Under the pieces are notes generated by a model that saw only the letters and a program-made list of their open reading frames with translations, made no database searches and had not been told where the DNA came from. DNA of 35,414 nucleotides from Ophryocystis elektroscirrha (lineage: Eukaryota > Apicomplexa > Conoidasida > Neogregarinorida > Ophryocystidae), in NCBI GenBank assembly GCA_030141585.1, contig JAQIFP010000095.1:1432-36845 (forward strand), in the 5' to 3' direction. A program made the translations under genes and the position numbers. Positions 11,592 to 35,414 of this stretch are shown piece after piece (positions within the stretch are counted from its first letter, which is position 1; the number at the start of each line of letters is the position of its first letter).

Positions 11592-12003
11592 AATTTACTT
11601 CATTTTTGTATTCTTAAAAAAAAATTTATACATATATATATATAGTCAGATTTTGCGACTTATAAATTATTTATAAGGTTTTGTTCCGAAATGTAAAATA
11701 CAAAATAACGCATATAAGTACAAAAATTATATTTGTTAAATCAGTGTTTTTCGTTAATAAAATACTTTATTTTATTAATTATCAGTAGTATATTCTAAAT
11801 GGCGTCTGAAGAAAAAAAAAAATAAAAGAAAAAGGAAAAAAAAAAAAAGAGAAAGAAAAAAAAAAAAATCAACTAGGTGGAGGGTTTTTGAATGCGTGAA
11901 GAGCTTTAGTAATTATCTTGCGACTACGAATTAATATATTTTTGGAATGATTTGAGAAAGAGTAACACAAATCTCTATCATACGATAAAAATGAATATGT
12001 AAA
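11592..12003. other. Intergenic between RTEL1 and the upstream gene, with A-rich tract
   Basis: This is the RTEL1 promoter side. It contains a striking purine run of A with scattered G at about 11808-11870 (plus strand). No gene was seen. A GC-richer patch around 11870-11960 has no recognisable product. Confidence 0.5.
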
Positions 12004-13514: not shown

Positions 13515-16500
13515 TTAGGAGGTGAAACCGGGAAATTTGAAATCAGGATTAGGAAGGAACTCATTGTTAACGAATGTGAAAGATATTATACGAGATTTAA
13601 GCCATCGTAGTTTATTTTTTGGTAGTTTTATTCCAGATTCTTTTTTAGGGAAATTGTTGGAGAGTATACAAGCGTTATTTTTTTCAGCAAGTAATATCAT
13701 ATACACCCAGCTTGAATTTTGCGGAGGAACTGTTGTTACGTAGCCTTCAAGTCTTTTGAATGTTTCCGCTATACTTTCAGAACGAAACTTCATAATCAGA
13801 TCCGACGCAATAATCATACACTAAAATAAAATATTAAGAGCTAATGTTGACATATATTCGTAGCAAATCTATGTATTCAAATAATTAAAATCTAATATAA
13901 ATAATATATATTAAACATATAAACAAAAATATGACATACTAAATTATTTAATATATCTATATATATATATAAACTTAAATATATATATAAATATAAATGT
14001 ATATATAAATACATATATCTAAATATATAAATACATATATATAATTAAATAAATACATATATAAATATGAATATATATATAGATACATATATAAGTACAT
14101 ATATAAGTACATATATAAGTACATATATAAGTACATATATAAGTACATATATAAGTACATATATAAGTACATATATATAAATATAAATATATAAATGTAT
14201 ATATAAATATGAATATATATATATAAATACATATATATAAATATAAATATATATATAAATACATATATAAATACATATATATAAATATAAATATGTATAT
14301 ATATATATATATATGAATATATGTATAAATAAATATATAAATACATATATATAAATATAAATATGAATATATATATAAATACATATATAAATGCATATGT
14401 ATGAATATAAATATATTTGTATTATTGTGTTATTTTATAGTGATATATGACCTGGTAATTTTTTTCCCTATAATATCTAAAGGCCAGTTCAATGTTATAC
14501 GCTTTGAATGTTTTTTCTGAGGCTTCTTCATCTCCAAGGCGACTTCCTAAAGAGTCTCCATCAATTATTATAAACTTCTCTGAAACATCCGGAGAGACTT
14601 GTTTAGACAAGCGAGCTGGAACTCGTCTATTAATTGCAGTATTAGGAGTAATATTCAAAATATCGAGTGATGCTTTTAAATGAATCTTGCCTCCACGAAT
14701 TGATTTCTCCAATTTCTTCCCACTTAATTTTTCTTGTTTAACATCTTCAACTGGCGGAACCAGTATTTTGTCGAGTGTATTAGATAAAACTTTGAGACGA
14801 GCAAAACGAACACAGCAAAGCTCAGATATGGGACATTCTTTATTACCATACAAAAATTTGGGATCATCTATTTATATATTTAGATATTTAAATAATTACT
14901 TTGAACCGGTTCTAAATCTGTAAAATCACAAGTAACATAAGTATTCAAATCAGGCTTATATAACTTCTGTTTTTTTCGAGTTACGGAACTGCTTCTTTTA
15001 TTAGGAGTAGTCTTATTAGGTCTTATAACAGATGCATAATTATAATCTGTAATATCAGTGGAAGATTTTTCTGAGTAGAAACACACAGGTATTGGTATAA
15101 ATCCAGTTAACCAAGATTCTCCAGCACATTTGTATTGTAAATATTCATCTATAAATAGTCACTTAGTATTTTTAATCAATTAATTAACTATTTAATTTAT
15201 ATAATTATTTATATTACATGATATTTCATTAAGTCCCAATTCTTTATGAAATACTTCAATAGATTTGTTAATTTGATTCTTAATAAGTGAAATTAGAGGA
15301 TAAATTGAGGAGGAATCAGTAATATAGAGTAACTTGGAATGAGCGATCCATAAGAGAAGGGGAATAATGCAGTTCCACAAAGAGGATACCGGAGATTGAA
15401 GAGCCTCTTGAAACAAACAAGATAAAAACTTGCAAATCAGGACACAAGAAAACTTTAATTGCTCATTTGCTTCAATTAAACTATCTAAATTCAATTTTGC
15501 GTCTTGAAACTCTAAAAACAAAATAAAAAAAAAAAAAAAAAAGATACCTTGAGTATATATAAGCCTAATATGTTGATATTCGTTATTAATACAATTTTGA
15601 ATTTGTTCGTAATTTTTCATATCAGATACATCATAAATTAAATTATCTGAAGAATTTGACGAATATAATGCAAAGTTTATAGAATTAGCATAATCTGCTA
15701 TATTTTTTCCAATTTGCTGTTGTTTTTCCCAGACGCCAGAAGTTTCTATCATTGTCAATAAAAGTAAATTTACAACTAAAAAAAAAAAAGAATTGGTTTT
15801 TTTTTTTTTTACTATTGCAATATGAAACTTGCATTTTGGATGAACTTAAGACACTATAATTGTTTTGCAGAAGCTCTATAAATAAGGAGAAATCTTTATA
15901 AAAATGATCCAATCTTAGACGCATAAGCACTGATTCTAAGATGTGTAAAAATCTAAAACTTTTTTTTTTTTTTTTTTTACCTCGAAAGAATAAAATCACA
16001 TGTATCCATTTTTAAGCGTTCATCTAGGGCACCTTTTTGTGCTAAAATAACGGTCAAAACATCCGTATTTTTACACGCAAAAATACTATATATTACAATT
16101 ATTTTCTTAAGTAAAAACTCACCTTAAGCAACTTCGTAAAATATACATTATTTGGGTCATATAATCGTCTTTAACGGCAGCTAAATTTGCCCATTGAGAA
16201 TACAAGTGTCCCTCCTAATTTAGACTGTTACTCTTAAACTTGTATATTAGACATATTATTATGACAAAATATATGCAGGGTTTTTTTGTAAAAAGTTGCA
16301 TGTGGAAAAATCATGTACGTATATAATCATTTTTTTTTTTACTAGATACAATTTTAATATATTTTTTTTTATATAAATATATATAAATAATAATTACGTT
16401 AAAATTTATAATAATTAACATAATGGGCTAATTCAATAGTGAAAAATACAGTTAAACAGTGCCAATTTATAATTATCAACCCTACCTGTGGAAAAACTAA

Positions 16501-17469
16501 TTCAGCCTCCTTATAATACTTTAAAGATTGGCTGTAACAAAACTCTTTGAAAGTATCTTCTGTGGGCGTCAATTCGAGGTACCTGCAACAATAGCGATAA
16601 ACATCTCCCAAAATTATGTTTAAATGACAGTAAAAATGTTTTGCTTCTGCTGTAGACAAATCGGTACAATTTTTTAAAATATTTTCAAAAGTTTTTATGG
16701 CATTTATGTAAAAATCTTTTTGCAGTTTTTTTTTCTCCTGAAGTTTGAAGCAAAACACGGAAATCCAACAAGCGGATAACAATCGCCGAGACGCTGCATG
16801 TGGGTATAACTTCATGATAGTAGGTAAATAATTTTCAACTACTGGTTCTGATTTAAAACCTTTTAATTCACTATTTTTATTATTTTCACTTTTATATAAA
16901 TTTTTATTTTTGTTTGCGTCTGTCGGGAGTTTTTTTTTGGAATTTTGAATAATGTCGTTATTTTTATATTTATTGTCTAAATAACCATCAGAGGCACCCT
17001 GAGTGTCTGAGGAAACTTTCAAATCCTTAACACAAGCGTCCTTCTGGGAATGACCGTTATCTTCTCCTTTATGCCATGATTTCTGATTATGCGGCGTCAT
17101 TAAATCCAAACCTTCCAAAATGTGCCGACTAGGCGTAAACTTTTTATGCAGATTTTTTTCTTCATAAATATCTGCCCTCATTACACAAATTGGTTTTTCA
17201 CATTTTTCCTTTTCTTTAAGATCACTATTTAAGGTATGCTTGAAATGATATGTAACCCCGCCTTCCAAAGATAACTTTTTTTTTTTTAAAATAGAAGCCA
17301 TAAAATCCGCATCAGACTTATTTGTGTACTCAAATTCATAATCGCCTATTTTACCAAACCTTCCAGCTAATTCAACCTGTTTTGCTTCTGACGTTAACTT
17401 AGACTCACTTCGAGCTTGTGGTGGAACATATAATGGTCTATCTTTTTTACGTATGTTATTGTTTTGCAT
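13515..17469 (-). CDS. EST1/SMG5-6-7-like protein with degenerate Zc3h12a-type NYN domain
   Basis: Likely nonsense-mediated decay or telomere-associated EST1-family protein. Nine exons: 17469-16486, 16214-16123, 16085-15981, 15952-15813, 15775-15548, 15511-15218, 15148-14900, 14867-14452, 13820-13515; 937 residues. Residues 1-220 are polar and probably disordered, starting with a basic, proline-containing stretch ([13 protein letters not shown]). A 14-3-3-like/TPR helical region follows: [17 protein letters not shown], then [20 protein letters not shown] (compare family LGD..RY and YY..A..L.P..G..YNQ), then [11 protein letters not shown] and [10 protein letters not shown]. The C-terminal domain (about 796-937) reads [24 protein letters not shown] and [14 protein letters not shown], which fits the Regnase (Zc3h12a) NYN RNase layout. 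Only the first aspartate (D800) is kept: the DD pair is SS (872-873), and SND is SNN. It is therefore probably catalytically inactive, as in SMG5. SMG6-type PIN is the alternative reading. The intron at 15512-15547 is 36 bp and stop-free. Confidence 0.8.
13975..14400. repeat. Tandem TATATAAATACA arrays and 12-bp (gtacatatataa)n in an intron
   Basis: About seven exact 12-bp units run from about 14096 to 14177, flanked by imperfect ATATATAAATACAT arrays, in the last intron (13821-14451) of the EST1-like gene. Two overlapping minus-strand open frames of about 125 codons here are repeat artefacts. Confidence 0.9.
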
Positions 17470-18011: not shown

Positions 18012-19990
18012 TCAAAAATATACTTGGAATGGTGTATTCAATACTTGCATTATATCAGAATTTTGAGGTTTTATTTCCAACTTTTCACCAGCTTCTTTCA
18101 AAAGTTTAGCTTTATCATTTTTTTTCAACAACCTTAAATGCTTTGAAAGCCTGTTTATATGTATTACTTTTTTTTTTTTTTTTACCTTGGTAATCTTTTT
18201 TTTATAGGGTGTTTGAAATGGCAAAAAGCACATTTTAACCCATTTACACATCCTTCCTTTCGAGAATTATTGGTAAATGCACAAGGACGACAAGTTCCTA
18301 AGCTGTGATTAATTGATCCTATAGAAGTTAACATTCCATTTTCATCTAATGGAATTGTAGAAATATCAATCTCTTCAGATGGATATGAAGCAATTTTACT
18401 CTCTATTTCGGTTTTTGAAGATGAAATTTCTTTATTGATATTTGTTAAATCTCTCATTAAAACATCAAGAAAATTTGGTTTAAGCTCTTTGTTTTCTTCA
18501 CTAGAGTTGATTTGGTCCCATAAATTTTCTGGTATTGTGTTCTCAATTGAAGTTTCGTAATTATAATTGAATCCAGGCTCAAATTCCATGGAATCAAACA
18601 TTTGTAACTTTGGAACGGATGTATCTATACAAATTCAACTATTACTGTAACAATACCAAATTAATACTATACATTAATAGATATATATACATTTCACTGT
18701 ATACTACATAAAATATGCCTTATTGATATTTCTTTGCAATTCACTATTATATACATACATATATATATATATGTGTATACATATATATATACATTAACAC
18801 ATACATAAATACAGACATATAAAAATATATATCTGCATATATATGTATATATATAATGACATTAGTCACTTTGTATTCATAAAGTACATATATATATATA
18901 TATATATATATGGGTAGCCACATATATATATATATATATATGTACATAGAGTATATAGATTATATCTTTGTAGTATATATTACATAAACTTATAAATTAA
19001 GATATAAAAGAACTATAGTATCCTATAAAAATGAAGCATTATACAATTATTCTTACTTATACATGATTATTGTGTTATACTATTCTATATTAAAATAAAA
19101 ATGTATATATAAATTTTTAGTTATATATGTATATATATACTAATGTTCATAAATATGACTACTTATATATATACATATACATAAATACATATATACACAT
19201 CTATACACATATACATAAATACATATATACACATCTATACACATATACATAAATACATATATACACATATATACACATATATACACATATATACACATAT
19301 ATACACATATATACACATATTTACACATATATACACATATATACACATGTTTACATATATATATAATAATAAATTAATGTCNNNNNNNNNNNNNNNNNAC
19401 ATATATACACATATATACACATATATACACATATATACACATATATACACATATATACACATATTTACACATATATACACATATATACACATGTTTACAT
19501 ATATATATAATAATAAATTAATGTCTATAATGGCTTTATAAATTAATAGTAATGTGAATGAATAAGTATATATCCAAAAATAATTAATTGCACCAACTAT
19601 TATGTATAAATTAATATTATGTAATATATAAGTCTATTATATAAATGAAATTCCAAAAATATATTTTTAAATATATAAATAATGATATTTATAATTTATT
19701 GTATATATCATCTAAATGATATTACTGTAATTAACTTCATCCATTGAGTTCATGGTACTATACATGCCAGGTAAATTGAAACGCTCGAAAAGTGCATTTC
19801 CATAATCATCAACATTCGAACAGCTTCTGAAAAAGCGTTGATCGTAATCATCCATTTCTTTCGTTAAAGCTACACAAGCCAAAGTTGTTGCATGACGCAA
19901 AGGAAACATAGTTTCAACGGAATTCTGTGCACATTGCGTCGAACACGATTGTGAAGAATTATTAGCATTTGAATTCTGGGAAAATGCCAT
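18012..19990 (-). CDS. C3H1-type zinc-finger protein
   Basis: Probable RNA-binding protein. Three exons: 19990-19726, 18624-18186 and 18150-18012; 280 residues. Residues 1-88 (MAFSQNSNANN...) are Asn/Ser-rich with scattered Cys. The middle is acidic. Near residue 200 comes GSINHSLGTCRPCAF, then GCVNGLKCAFCHFKH. This gives a Cys-x5-Cys-x3-His finger tail preceded by two more cysteines, a form I associate with protist C3H1 proteins. After it comes a basic helix (KHLRLLKKNDKAKLLKEAGEKL). The join of exon 1 to exon 2 is inferred: the donor at 19725 and the acceptor at 18625 have matching phase, and the frame is open before the internal ATG at 18601. If the join is wrong, exon 1 is a separate 92-residue frame and the zinc-finger protein starts at 18601. 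The 1101-bp first intron holds repeats and the assembly gap. The second intron is 35 bp. Confidence 0.65.
18750..18950. repeat. TA-rich microsatellites in intron
   Basis: Several imperfect (AT)n and ATATGT runs inside the first intron of the zinc-finger gene. Confidence 0.8.
19160..19515. repeat. (acacatatat)n array duplicated across an assembly gap
   Basis: Copies of the 10-bp unit acacatatat run from about 19256 to 19340 and again from 19399 to about 19480. Both copies end in the same unique-looking tail (acatgtttacatatatat, then ataataataaattaatgt), the first directly before the Ns and the second at about 19489-19524. Confidence 0.9.
19382..19398. other. Assembly gap, 17 Ns
   Basis: A run of 17 N lies inside the repeat array. 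Flanking sequence on the left is repeated on the right, so the true length is unknown and the left copy may be a false duplicate. Confidence 0.95.
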
Positions 19991-29504: not shown

Positions 29505-31965
29505 TTATGTTTTTACTTCTATAACTTTTAAACGCGTGTCCTTTTCAAAAAACTCACATCGACGTTGTATCTAATAAATCAATGCTATAAAATTGTATTT
29601 AACTGCTTAATTTTAATAATTAAATGTAGTGAAATATTTTTATCTATTATTCATTATTATTACATTTAATTATAAAATAAATTATTGATAATATATATAA
29701 TAGCAATATAATAAATAATATACAATTTATTTGATTGTAATCTATATATATATATTACCTCAGAACATAAATAATTGATTGAGTCACTGTATTCTTTTTC
29801 TTTGTTTATAGACCTTTCCATGATTTTCTTCAATTCAATATCGGCTTTTTTTATTTGCTCTTTAGCGTTCTATATCAAAAAGCAAAAATAATAATTTTTT
29901 TTTCGAAGGCTGCTTGGTCTAGGGGTATGATTCTCGCTTTGGGTGCGAGAGGTCCCGAGTTCGATTCTCGGAGCAGCCCTTTTTTATAATTAAATATCAT
30001 ACCTTGTTGACGATTTCTATTTCTTTTTTAGACTTTTCTAATAACTCTTTTCTAAGCATATAGAATATAAATATATAGAGAATTTACTTCTTTTTTTGTA
30101 ACAATTCGTGCTCTCTTTTAACAGTCTCTTGACTATCTTGGACTATTTTATGATACTCCTCTAATGCAACCTGAAATAAGTTCATATATATATATATGCT
30201 TATAGCAATTATATATATATATATATATATATAGTTTGAATTGATAGAAATGAATCTGGCTCATAATTTGCATATATTATATATTTTGGCCATTACCTTG
30301 AAATGTTTCTTTAGTTCTTGTTCAAATAACACACATGCATTTTTAGCAGCATTTAAAATCTTTTGTTTTTCCATAGCCATCAATTCATGTTCTGAACGTG
30401 CCAAGTTTGTAGCATCTGCCGTCAATTTTTGATATTTTCTAAAACAATCAAAAACTTACTGATACATTAAGTAATCTTAACTAAACATACTATTAAAAAA
30501 TAACACCATATTATTGATACATATATTATTAATATAATTTATTTAATAGACAAATAATATGTGCTAATTCTTATTTTGCAGATTATATGTCCAGACCTTA
30601 CTATATGTAATCTAATATATAACATACATTCAAATTATGCTGCATATTCATTAATGACTTATACATATATATATATATATATATTTCGGGTTATATATAT
30701 GTATTTATATATATGTATATAAACGTACCCATATAGGTATATACATATATATATATATATATGTATATAGACTAAGTACCAAATATATCAGTTTATACCT
30801 GACTATAGTTTTAACATAAAATTTACACTGAATATATCACATTATATGGTAGTTGAATAAGGACAGTTATAAGTTAATAATAATTATTATGTATATATAT
30901 ATATATAATTACTTTATTATATAATCAACAGAATTGAAAATGGATTGTCGTTCTTTATTCATTATCGCAGCGGCAGATTTTCTGATATTCTTAAGTTGCT
31001 CTTCGTATTGAGCCCTAAGCTCAATTTTGGACAATTTTTCTTCTCTATGTAAATGTAATAGTTGATCCCTAGTTAATTGCACCTAATGATCTAATTCAAA
31101 TATATTTTGCTTAAAATTCATTTATAAGGTTTACTTAATTTATATATATATAAGCCATATGACATATATATATATAATAGATGATATAATATAATGTATA
31201 TATATATATATATATATTAATATATAATGGATGATATAAAATCATAAAATATATATATGTATAATATATTTAATATTTTCTAGTATATATATATATGTAA
31301 TATATATAAATTACATTATTGTTATATATAATTATAATTCATATATTTATAAATAAATTATATTGAACTGTTTATTTAATAAATTAATATAATAAATAGT
31401 ACATAAAGATTAATTATAATAATTTTAAATTATATTTGTATAATAATTTTTAAATAAATTATTACATGTTTAGTTATGCCTGCATAATCTTGGGTTCTTA
31501 AGGGGTTCACATCGTGTGAAGATAAAGCGTAAGATTCTTCTGAAGCAGGAAGAATATCAAAGTCTTCTTTGAGCAGTCCTTCATTGCCCAGGTTTTGTAT
31601 TAGTCTATCAACGCACTCAGATAATTGTAAAACCTGAAATCATTATTTGCGTGACAAATTGCTACAAATGGCCATACAAAAGTGAATTGAACTTTGTTAA
31701 ACATAATTATACAAAATAATGATGCCTTAAGCTAGTAAACACTTACTTGATTTTCAATATCATCTGTTTTTTGTTGCAGAAAATTCACTGAACTATTTTC
31801 AGGATCTTGATTTTCCTTATAATTACCTACTTAAACATAATTCACAAATATTCATTACTTTCTGTTAAATTATAAACTCGATCAGTATATTTTTTATCTA
31901 ATAAATTGATATTTTATATTTAAATATGTACTATTCAAACTTAAATCAAAACTATCAAATTTCAT
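29505..31965 (-). CDS. Coiled-coil protein of unknown function, 300 residues
   Basis: Nine exons: 31965-31932, 31826-31747, 31633-31466, 31082-30913, 30438-30297, 30170-30088, 30051-30003, 29869-29759 and 29570-29505. All phases agree, and each exon reads as charged helical sequence while the introns are nearly pure AT. Residues 1-90 are acidic and probably disordered (for example [15 protein letters not shown]). From about 95 to the end the protein is an almost continuous coiled coil ([59 protein letters not shown]), ending [17 protein letters not shown] cannot assign a family. The small first exon (11 codons) is the least certain. Intron 7 (29870-30002) carries a tRNA-Pro gene on the opposite strand. 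Its start codon lies only 58 bp from that of the divergent gene at 32024. Confidence 0.7.
29908..29978 (+). tRNA. tRNA-Pro (anticodon UGG)
   Basis: A 71-nt cloverleaf. The acceptor stem is GGCTGCT at 29908-29914 paired with AGCAGCC at 29972-29978. The anticodon stem CTCGC/GCGAG encloses loop TTTGGGT, giving anticodon TGG at 29940-29942, which reads proline codons. An internal A box lies at about 29915-29926 (tggtctaggggt) and a B box at 29959-29969 (gttcgattctc). There is no tRNA intron and no encoded CCA. The gene sits inside an intron of the minus-strand coiled-coil gene, transcribed in the opposite direction. Confidence 0.97.
29980..29985 (+). terminator. RNA polymerase III T-run terminator of tRNA-Pro
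   Basis: Six T begin two bases after the tRNA 3' end. Confidence 0.85.
30660..30770. repeat. TA microsatellites in intron
   Basis: Imperfect (AT)n and ATATGT runs in the 474-bp intron (30439-30912) of the 300-residue coiled-coil gene. Similar runs occupy 31140-31330 in the next intron upstream. Confidence 0.8.
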
Positions 31966-33610: not shown

Positions 33611-35414
33611 ATGTCTAATAAGTTAGTTTGTGACAAATGTGGTGGTACGGATATGATATACTGTGATAGCCGTGGCGACACATATTGCACAACATGTGGA
33701 TATGTGATGGAAGAAAATCACATGGTAGATTCAATAACGTTCACAGAAAATTCTTCTGGAGCAGTCAAAGCAATAGGCCAATTCATTCCGTCCACAGGAT
33801 TTACGTTGACATACAATTCAAGAGAGATCAGAGAATTAACACTTCAAAGAGGCTACAATAATATTCAACAAATTGCAGACCGTCTCCAGCTTCCTATGAA
33901 CCTTGTTGAAGCTGCTCAACGCATTTACGTAATTGGCGTCCAGCGCGGTTTTACTATTGGTAGAATCAGTCAGCATGTTGCCGCTGCTTGTCTCTATATT
34001 AGCTGCCGAAGAGAAAAAGCGCCTCAACTTTTAGTAGACTTCTCAGATGTCCTCCTTACTCCTGCAAAGATTCTTGGCCGAGTAAGTTATAGCTATAAGT
34101 CTATATCTTATTATTATTAATAATTATATTAAATATAAAGATTAAATATATATAGATATGCATTTATTATACATATGATTAATTATATATTAATAAAACT
34201 CGAAAAATAAACGTAATATAAGCATAATATGATTATATTATAAGGAGCTTATATATGGATATACAGAGAATAAGTTATTATTTGTACGAAAGATTTTGGT
34301 CAGATGTTTGTGAAGATGCTTCGAGTGTTAAGAATATATGTACCTACAATTGATCCTTCTCTATTTATGGAGCGTTTTGCCTCCCAAATGAAATTGAATG
34401 ACAAAGCGCATGATGTTGCTCAAACGGGAGTTCGACTGGTTCAAGCAATGACGCGAGATTGGATCTCTACAGGACGTCGTCCCACAGGATTATGTGGAGC
34501 TGCTTTGCTTATAGCCGCTAGATACCATGGAATCAAAGTTAATGCAGAGGACATTAGTTCTATAATTCGAATGGCGTCCTCAACTATTTCAAAACGTTTA
34601 GCTGAATTCAAAAAAACAGCAACTGCTCAATTAAAACAATCTGAATTTGAAAAAACCGATCTTCTTTCCCTTCCTGTTATTTCTGAACCTCCTTGTTTGA
34701 AATCTAGTCGCTCGAAGCTACTAGCATTGAACTCACCTTCAGAACCTCTTCTAGCTTTACCCCTTGCTTCTCCTGTATCTTCCAGTCGTGTCAATTTAGT
34801 AGCGTCGACTGATGAAATTTGTAATCAAAGTCCCGACGGTAATGCCATCACTGGTTTGGCCCATCAAATGCTAAATGCAATAGAAGAACAATTTCAACTT
34901 CCTCATGGAAGCGAACTTGAACAACTTGGGACTCAATCGGAACCTGAACCGGATCCAGATCCTCTTAAACATTTATTAACATCTGTCAAACAAAAAATCC
35001 CTGAATTATCTGAAGAATTAGTGCAGCAACCTTCTCTTAGCTTATTAAATGGTAATAAAACAGTTATATTCACTGCATACGTAAGTTTCACTTATGTATA
35101 TAAAAATTAATAATCACTCAACTTCAATCTTACTATAGTGGGTTGGTGACTTTTATACATCATAAAATTGTGTTTATTTATTAGTAGTATTTATTTATAT
35201 TTTCATATTGAATGTTTTATATAAAATATATGTACATTTAAAAAAAAAAAAAAAAAAAAATTATATATAAAATTATATATAAATAACTTTTTTTTGACAT
35301 ATCGTTTCAGTTGCAGAATCAGAAGCTGAAAACTTTCCTGTTATTAAGCAGCACGAAGAACCTGAAGAAGAAACTCTTAGTGACGTTAGTGACGGAGAGG
35401 TTAATAGACTTCTT
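33611..35414 (+). CDS. BRF1: TFIIIB subunit BRF1 (3' end outside window)
   Basis: TFIIB-related factor that recruits RNA polymerase III to tRNA and 5S genes as part of TFIIIB. Exons 33611-34081, 34304-35051 and 35311 onward; introns 222 and 259 bp. N-terminal zinc ribbon: C7, C10, C26, C29 (CDKCGGTD, then CTTCG). Next ENSSGAVKAIGQF matches the BRF1 linker (ESS.G.S.AVGQF). Two cyclin-like repeats follow: IGRISQHVAAACLYISCR with LLVDFSDVL, and RDWISTGRRPTGLCGAALLI with ASSTISKRLAEF. After a Ser/Leu-rich spacer, the last visible part TLSDVSDGEVNRLL matches the BRF1 homology block (compare LSDIDDEEI) that binds TBP. The exon 2 end at 35051 (g|gtaata) gives the right frame. A strong GTAAGT at 35081 would put exon 3 out of frame. 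The remaining C-terminus lies beyond 35414. Confidence 0.95.

Follow-up and report, generated by a model that had tools for sequence, protein, structure and literature searches.

Does the surveillance of faulty messages ever rely on a nuclease domain that can no longer cut? This question is raised by a predicted gene of Ophryocystis elektroscirrha (17469..13515, minus strand), located in a 35,414-nucleotide stretch of contig JAQIFP010000095.1 (assembly GCA_030141585.1), hereafter the window, whose numbering is used throughout. The initial annotation of the locus had described an EST1-like region joined to a Regnase-type NYN domain that appeared catalytically dead. Our analysis bears out this observation overall and finds four of the five known NYN acids lost, together with a second EST1-NYN gene, C2, which retains them all in the same genome.

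Loss of the catalytic acids

When the whole window protein was searched against Pfam (E ≤ 10), a single family was returned, PF11977 (RNase_Zc3h12a; 35 bits, cut-off 23, residues 795–930). The domain alone gave PF11977 and a sub-threshold match to TruB_N (13.8 bits, cut-off 27.3), and no PIN family matched either query. Against the PDB, the single domain sequence gave weak matches, the best being ZC3H12B/C/A (E 0.05–0.67), while a Foldseek search with a model of exon 9 placed Regnase/ZC3H12/KHNYN proteins at ranks 1–15 (E 0.004–0.021), a model-based result that, with the silence of the PIN families in Pfam, agrees with the proposal of an NYN rather than an SMG6-type PIN domain. This model aligns from chain residue 136, its second strand apparently standing in place of the first, and is unsuited to active-site geometry.

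Relatives were collected using C2 as query, which returned 19 proteins at E ≤ 0.001 out of 240 candidates. Among them were unnamed proteins, two N4BP1 proteins of amphioxus and proteins from Cardiosporidium cionae, Perkinsus marinus and P. olseni; a PRORP domain is present in four. Regnase-1 numbering was carried over by aligning the C2 domain with a PDB sequence and by the domain alignment. The five acid columns are invariant across relatives P0001–P0017, and acid-complete NYN relatives occur in Cardiosporidium and Perkinsus. In the window protein, one of the five acids is kept and four are lost. Asp is found at position 800 in this protein as in the 16 other aligned rows (16/16), while S873, W874 and N892 stand where 16/16 other rows have Asp. 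The Asp of the YRD motif is also gone, the position being either an alignment gap or, if read ungapped, K896, non-acidic both ways. The replacement of SND by SNN at 890–892 had been correctly recognized, whereas the DD pair had been placed at SS 872–873, one residue off from the true S873–W874, with no consequence for the conclusion; the lysine proposed for the later Asp holds for the ungapped reading, the alignment having a gap there. The statement that D800 is the only acid left is right for the five known positions and too strong for the domain as a whole, which also has D802 and D843. The former is an additional acid at a site where S, P or A is found in relatives; the latter stands at a position occupied by E or D in C2 and the 13 aligned non-N4BP1 relatives. 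Both lie outside the five acids named for PRORP1 (PMC12923823). The domain very probably lacks nuclease activity, as predicted from these replacements, and no relative of the acid-less domain was found elsewhere in a search of limited reach.

The rest of the domain did not erode evenly. The 12 relatives compared agree without exception in 36 columns; C2 matches them in 33 of these and the window protein in 17, the latter retaining 9/9 family-invariant residues in the C-terminal block (909–930) versus 2/12 around the active site (871–896). The Fisher p value of 0.0002 for this contrast is descriptive, the blocks having been picked post hoc. As read from the alignment, the pattern of constraint is that of a preserved core strand block and a dismantled active site. 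Close to its end, which lies 7 residues beyond F930, the window protein shares NPDFKFP with C2; it also keeps P868, the equivalent of Regnase-1 P212, and does not keep that of R214.

An intact paralog in the same genome

A PF11977 search of the 8.0-Mb assembly identified at least two loci: in addition to the window gene, there is a locus on contig C2 (G000:C2:200160-197974). The latter is predicted to encode an EST1-like region followed by an NYN domain with IDGSN, DYDDSY and SNDMYRD motifs, in which all five acids are present (PF11977, 84 bits). Pairwise BLASTP, a comparison of single sequences, linked the two proteins over both the EST1 part (E 3e-17) and the NYN domain (E 2e-14), with 27% identity in the NYN region. 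In all three alignments, three of the five C2 introns coincide with introns of the window gene in both residue and phase; a fourth does so in two of three and the fifth in none. Those matched throughout include the intron inside the NYN domain (C2 intron 5, window intron 8), and both introns flanking window exon 2 are common to the two genes in position and phase. Furthermore, the EST1 part ends and the NYN domain begins within a single C2 exon, in support of a joined model for the window gene. The proteins differ in that C2 is longer by about 20 residues past the second strand, whereas the window protein has a long N-terminal tail with no counterpart in the C2 model, which may have upstream exons. 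In the tree, which gave the window protein no firm placement, its branch has about six times the length of the C2 branch. The two genes are, on this comparison, diverged paralogs, one acid-less and one intact. The window protein is accordingly found in one genome with an acid-complete paralog bearing the same nuclease domain, whose activity is predicted.

The EST1-like region and the N-terminus

In a phmmer search, the EST1 part of the window protein matched SMG-7 (1ya0) with an E-value of 0.0011, the sole match at E ≤ 10 among 177,635 PDB sequences. Together with the PF11977 match, this upholds the view that EST1-like and Regnase-type NYN regions occur in one gene. The Pfam EST1 models gave no match to the window protein, while C2 had a sub-threshold match to the Pfam 14-3-3 model (16.3 bits, cut-off 33.2). 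Because of the silence of the EST1 models, we assign the predicted protein to the SMG5/6/7 (EST1) family, by its 14-3-3-like/TPR helical domain, with moderate confidence. We infer that this domain would bind UPF1. A short motif at residues 8–20 may resemble those through which SMG6 binds the exon-junction complex; a YVP motif is likewise present near the N-terminus of the Cardiosporidium protein P0001.

Gene model

The window gene is modeled as nine exons encoding a predicted protein of 937 amino acids (Table 1), and the model reproduces the residue numbers of the initial annotation. The interval 13515–14867 presented there corresponds to the last two exons with the TA-repeat intron between them and is not a single open frame. 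All eight introns are GT..AG, with lengths from 28 to 631 nucleotides; the GC content by codon position is 0.39/0.32/0.26 over the gene and 0.39/0.30/0.29 in exon 1, versus 0.13 in introns. Some introns are very short (e.g. 15953–15980, 28 nucleotides) and some consist, apart from the terminal GT and AG, almost entirely of poly-A or poly-T. Long TA-rich repeats, seen in translations, fill the last intron and recur at about 19150–19640, where a run of 17 N (19382–19398) may mark an assembly gap.

Table 1. Predicted features of the window gene
Feature	Position	Strand	Residues	Remark
Exon 1	16486..17469	-	1-328	Basic N-terminal tail and first part of 14-3-3-like/TPR region
N-terminal short motif	17410..17448	-	8-20	Read from sequence
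SMG-7-matching stretch	15946..16536	-	312-396	Spans exons 1-4 and their introns
Exon 2	16123..16214	-		Start aligns with EGHTYNQMMQLAVL of C2
Exon 3	15981..16085	-		
Exon 4	15813..15952	-		
Exon 5	15548..15775	-		
Exon 6	15218..15511	-		
Exon 7	14900..15148	-		EST1-like region ends here
Exon 8	14452..14867	-		Linker and start of NYN domain (IIIDGDS...YYREKNYQ)
D800 codon	14560..14562	-	800	Sole kept NYN acid of five; Regnase-1 D141
Intron 8	13821..14451	-		631 nucleotides, TA-rich repeats, 10.5% GC, non-standard donor GTCATA
Exon 9	13515..13820	-		Remainder of NYN domain and stop codon
Codons 871-876	13701..13718	-	871-876	NSSWVY versus family DYDDSY; S873-W874 = Regnase-1 D225-D226
N892 codon	13653..13655	-	892	Replaces Asp of S/TND; Regnase-1 D244
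C-terminal block	13539..13604	-	909-930	9/9 family-invariant residues kept

Predicted role in nonsense-mediated decay

Several genes of the decay pathway were recognized in the genome. The UPF1 zinc domain was matched with 183.5 bits, in a long open frame where a helicase Walker motif is visible by eye, and UPF3 and Mago with 48.7 and 74.5 bits, respectively; the in-frame stops within the UPF3 stretch and the best Mago stretch are as expected from introns being read through. Upf2 and SMG1 gave no match, the controls of those searches being silent too, and SMG1 is described as lost in alveolates (PMC10449492). PIN_4 gave no match either, its control having rung in 9 of 14 genomes.

We favor a reading that could equally well prove right or wrong, namely that the window protein likely does not cut RNA and would pair with C2, helping it to cut messages in nonsense-mediated decay. 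Its 14-3-3-like part would dock on UPF1, its NYN domain would associate with that of C2 as a non-cutting secondary subunit, and the paired C2 enzyme would do the cutting. NYN-NYN pairing is suggested by analogy with two systems. First, Regnase-1 PIN/NYN domains are reported to form head-to-tail dimers, which mutation of P212 breaks, and monomeric mutants lose activity; the D226N/D244N (DDNN) domain, inactive alone, can work in vitro as a secondary subunit that rescues partners with certain basic-residue mutations (PMC4772114). D226 and D244 correspond to W874 and N892 of the window protein, with D225 and the YRD Asp lost besides. A role as non-cutting secondary subunit for C2 is likely. Second, the inactive PIN domain of SMG5 is described as binding that of SMG6, adding an Asp and RNA contacts, and as needed for decay in cells (PMC12923823). 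Given the intact paralog in the same genome, a SMG5/SMG6-like pair with NYN instead of PIN domains would so be present.

Alternatively, and somewhat improbably in our estimation, the window protein could be a pseudo-nuclease acting alone, docked on UPF1 without contacting C2, its dead NYN domain binding RNA or recruiting decay factors in the manner of SMG7 or of the SMG5-SMG7 branch. This would fit with SMG7 being its sole sequence match among solved structures, with an N-terminal tail missing from the C2 model (unless upstream exons exist) and with a very long branch, which suggests a changed role. By itself, it leaves the full retention of the invariant C-terminal NYN residues unexplained, and the animal precedent is, as described, a composite one (PMC12923823).

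There is little chance that the domain still cuts RNA through a rearranged site combining D800 with D802, D843 or other acids. D802 is indeed new and close to D800, and D843 lies where C2 and SMG6L-type relatives have E or D, but acids are lost at both DD positions, at SND and at YRD, and the Regnase-1 double mutant alone is reported inactive (PMC4772114).

Still less credible is that the gene is a pseudogene in decay or that the model joins exons wrongly. The model is predicted from sequence, its last exon follows a 631-nucleotide repeat intron with a non-standard donor, and the branch is long; yet all nine exons are open despite the low NYN identity to the paralog, the GC content is of coding type, and the last intron, as well as the EST1-NYN junction, has its counterpart in C2. 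Equally hard to credit is a telomere (EST1-type) factor, for which one could invoke a nearby gene that we take to resemble the RTEL1 helicase and the telomere factors included in the EST1/SMG family (PMC6173133), as no telomere-specific feature was found and Tetrahymena SMG6L is said to work in decay (PMC6173133).

Neighboring features

The exons at 11594–11183 (minus strand) presumably belong to this RTEL1-type helicase; as a hand-joined piece, they gave a sub-threshold Pfam match to ResIII only. The open frame 18634–18185 (minus strand; CRPCAF...GCVNGLKCAFCHF), with no Pfam match at E ≤ 0.01, appears to resemble CCCH-type fingers of dinoflagellates and relatives. At 33611–35110 (plus strand), two adjacent open frames contain TFIIB repeats, the first also a TFIIB zinc ribbon (28.8 bits, cut-off 29). 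A tRNA gene at 29908–29979 (plus strand) is the sole Rfam match at the gathering threshold within the window.

Comparison with known systems

Our literature search, which did not cover the study of Tetrahymena SMG6L by Tian et al. 2017, turned up no description of an SMG6L paralog lacking the acids. The combination of EST1 and NYN regions is the SMG6L architecture of Tetrahymena, which numerous other protozoa are said to have conserved (PMC6173133). Like SMG6L, compared here by its description, the window protein would be a SMG5/6/7-family member with a C-terminal NYN domain; unlike SMG6L, for which a nuclease role in decay is described (PMC6173133), it has lost four acids out of five and is accompanied by an intact paralog. 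It is accordingly classed, from its sequence, as an acid-less paralog and not as an SMG6L nuclease. The idea of a SMG5-like pseudo-nuclease derived from another nuclease family stands as regards the lost acids and is strengthened by the intact copy, but the joining of EST1 and NYN regions is not new, and its origin here is not supported, given SMG6L and the NYN proteins of Cardiosporidium and Perkinsus. What appears particular to this genome is the acid-less second copy, not the fusion.

The window domain shares with the Regnase-1/ZC3H12 RNases its Pfam family and a similar C-terminal block, and has its best structural matches among them. In these RNases the NYN domain is followed by a CCCH zinc finger, which the window protein does not have, differing also by its four missing acids and by the EST1-like region in front.

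The closest functional parallel may be metazoan SMG5, which, as predicted for the window protein, is a SMG5/6/7-family protein with a dead nuclease domain and an active paralog, SMG6, alongside. Unlike the PIN domains of SMG5 and SMG6, the nuclease domain of the window protein is a predicted Zc3h12a/Regnase NYN, and the dead states of the two likely have independent origins. The purpose of a dead SMG5 beside an active SMG6 had long been unclear, until a 2026 paper described the dead PIN domain as completing the active one (PMC12923823). Tentatively, and with more doubt than for the pairing itself, nonsense-mediated decay may have twice built a two-part endonuclease on SMG5/6/7 scaffolds, with the PIN domains of SMG6 and SMG5 in animals and, independently, with NYN domains in an alveolate-like lineage, where the window protein would be the obligate dead subunit completing the active site of C2. 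If true, this second, separately built pairing of an active with a dead nuclease, in another fold, would point to a two-part design being favored where faulty messages are degraded, perhaps as a safety lock that prevents cutting until the two proteins come together on UPF1, a question that two small domains from one genome make testable.
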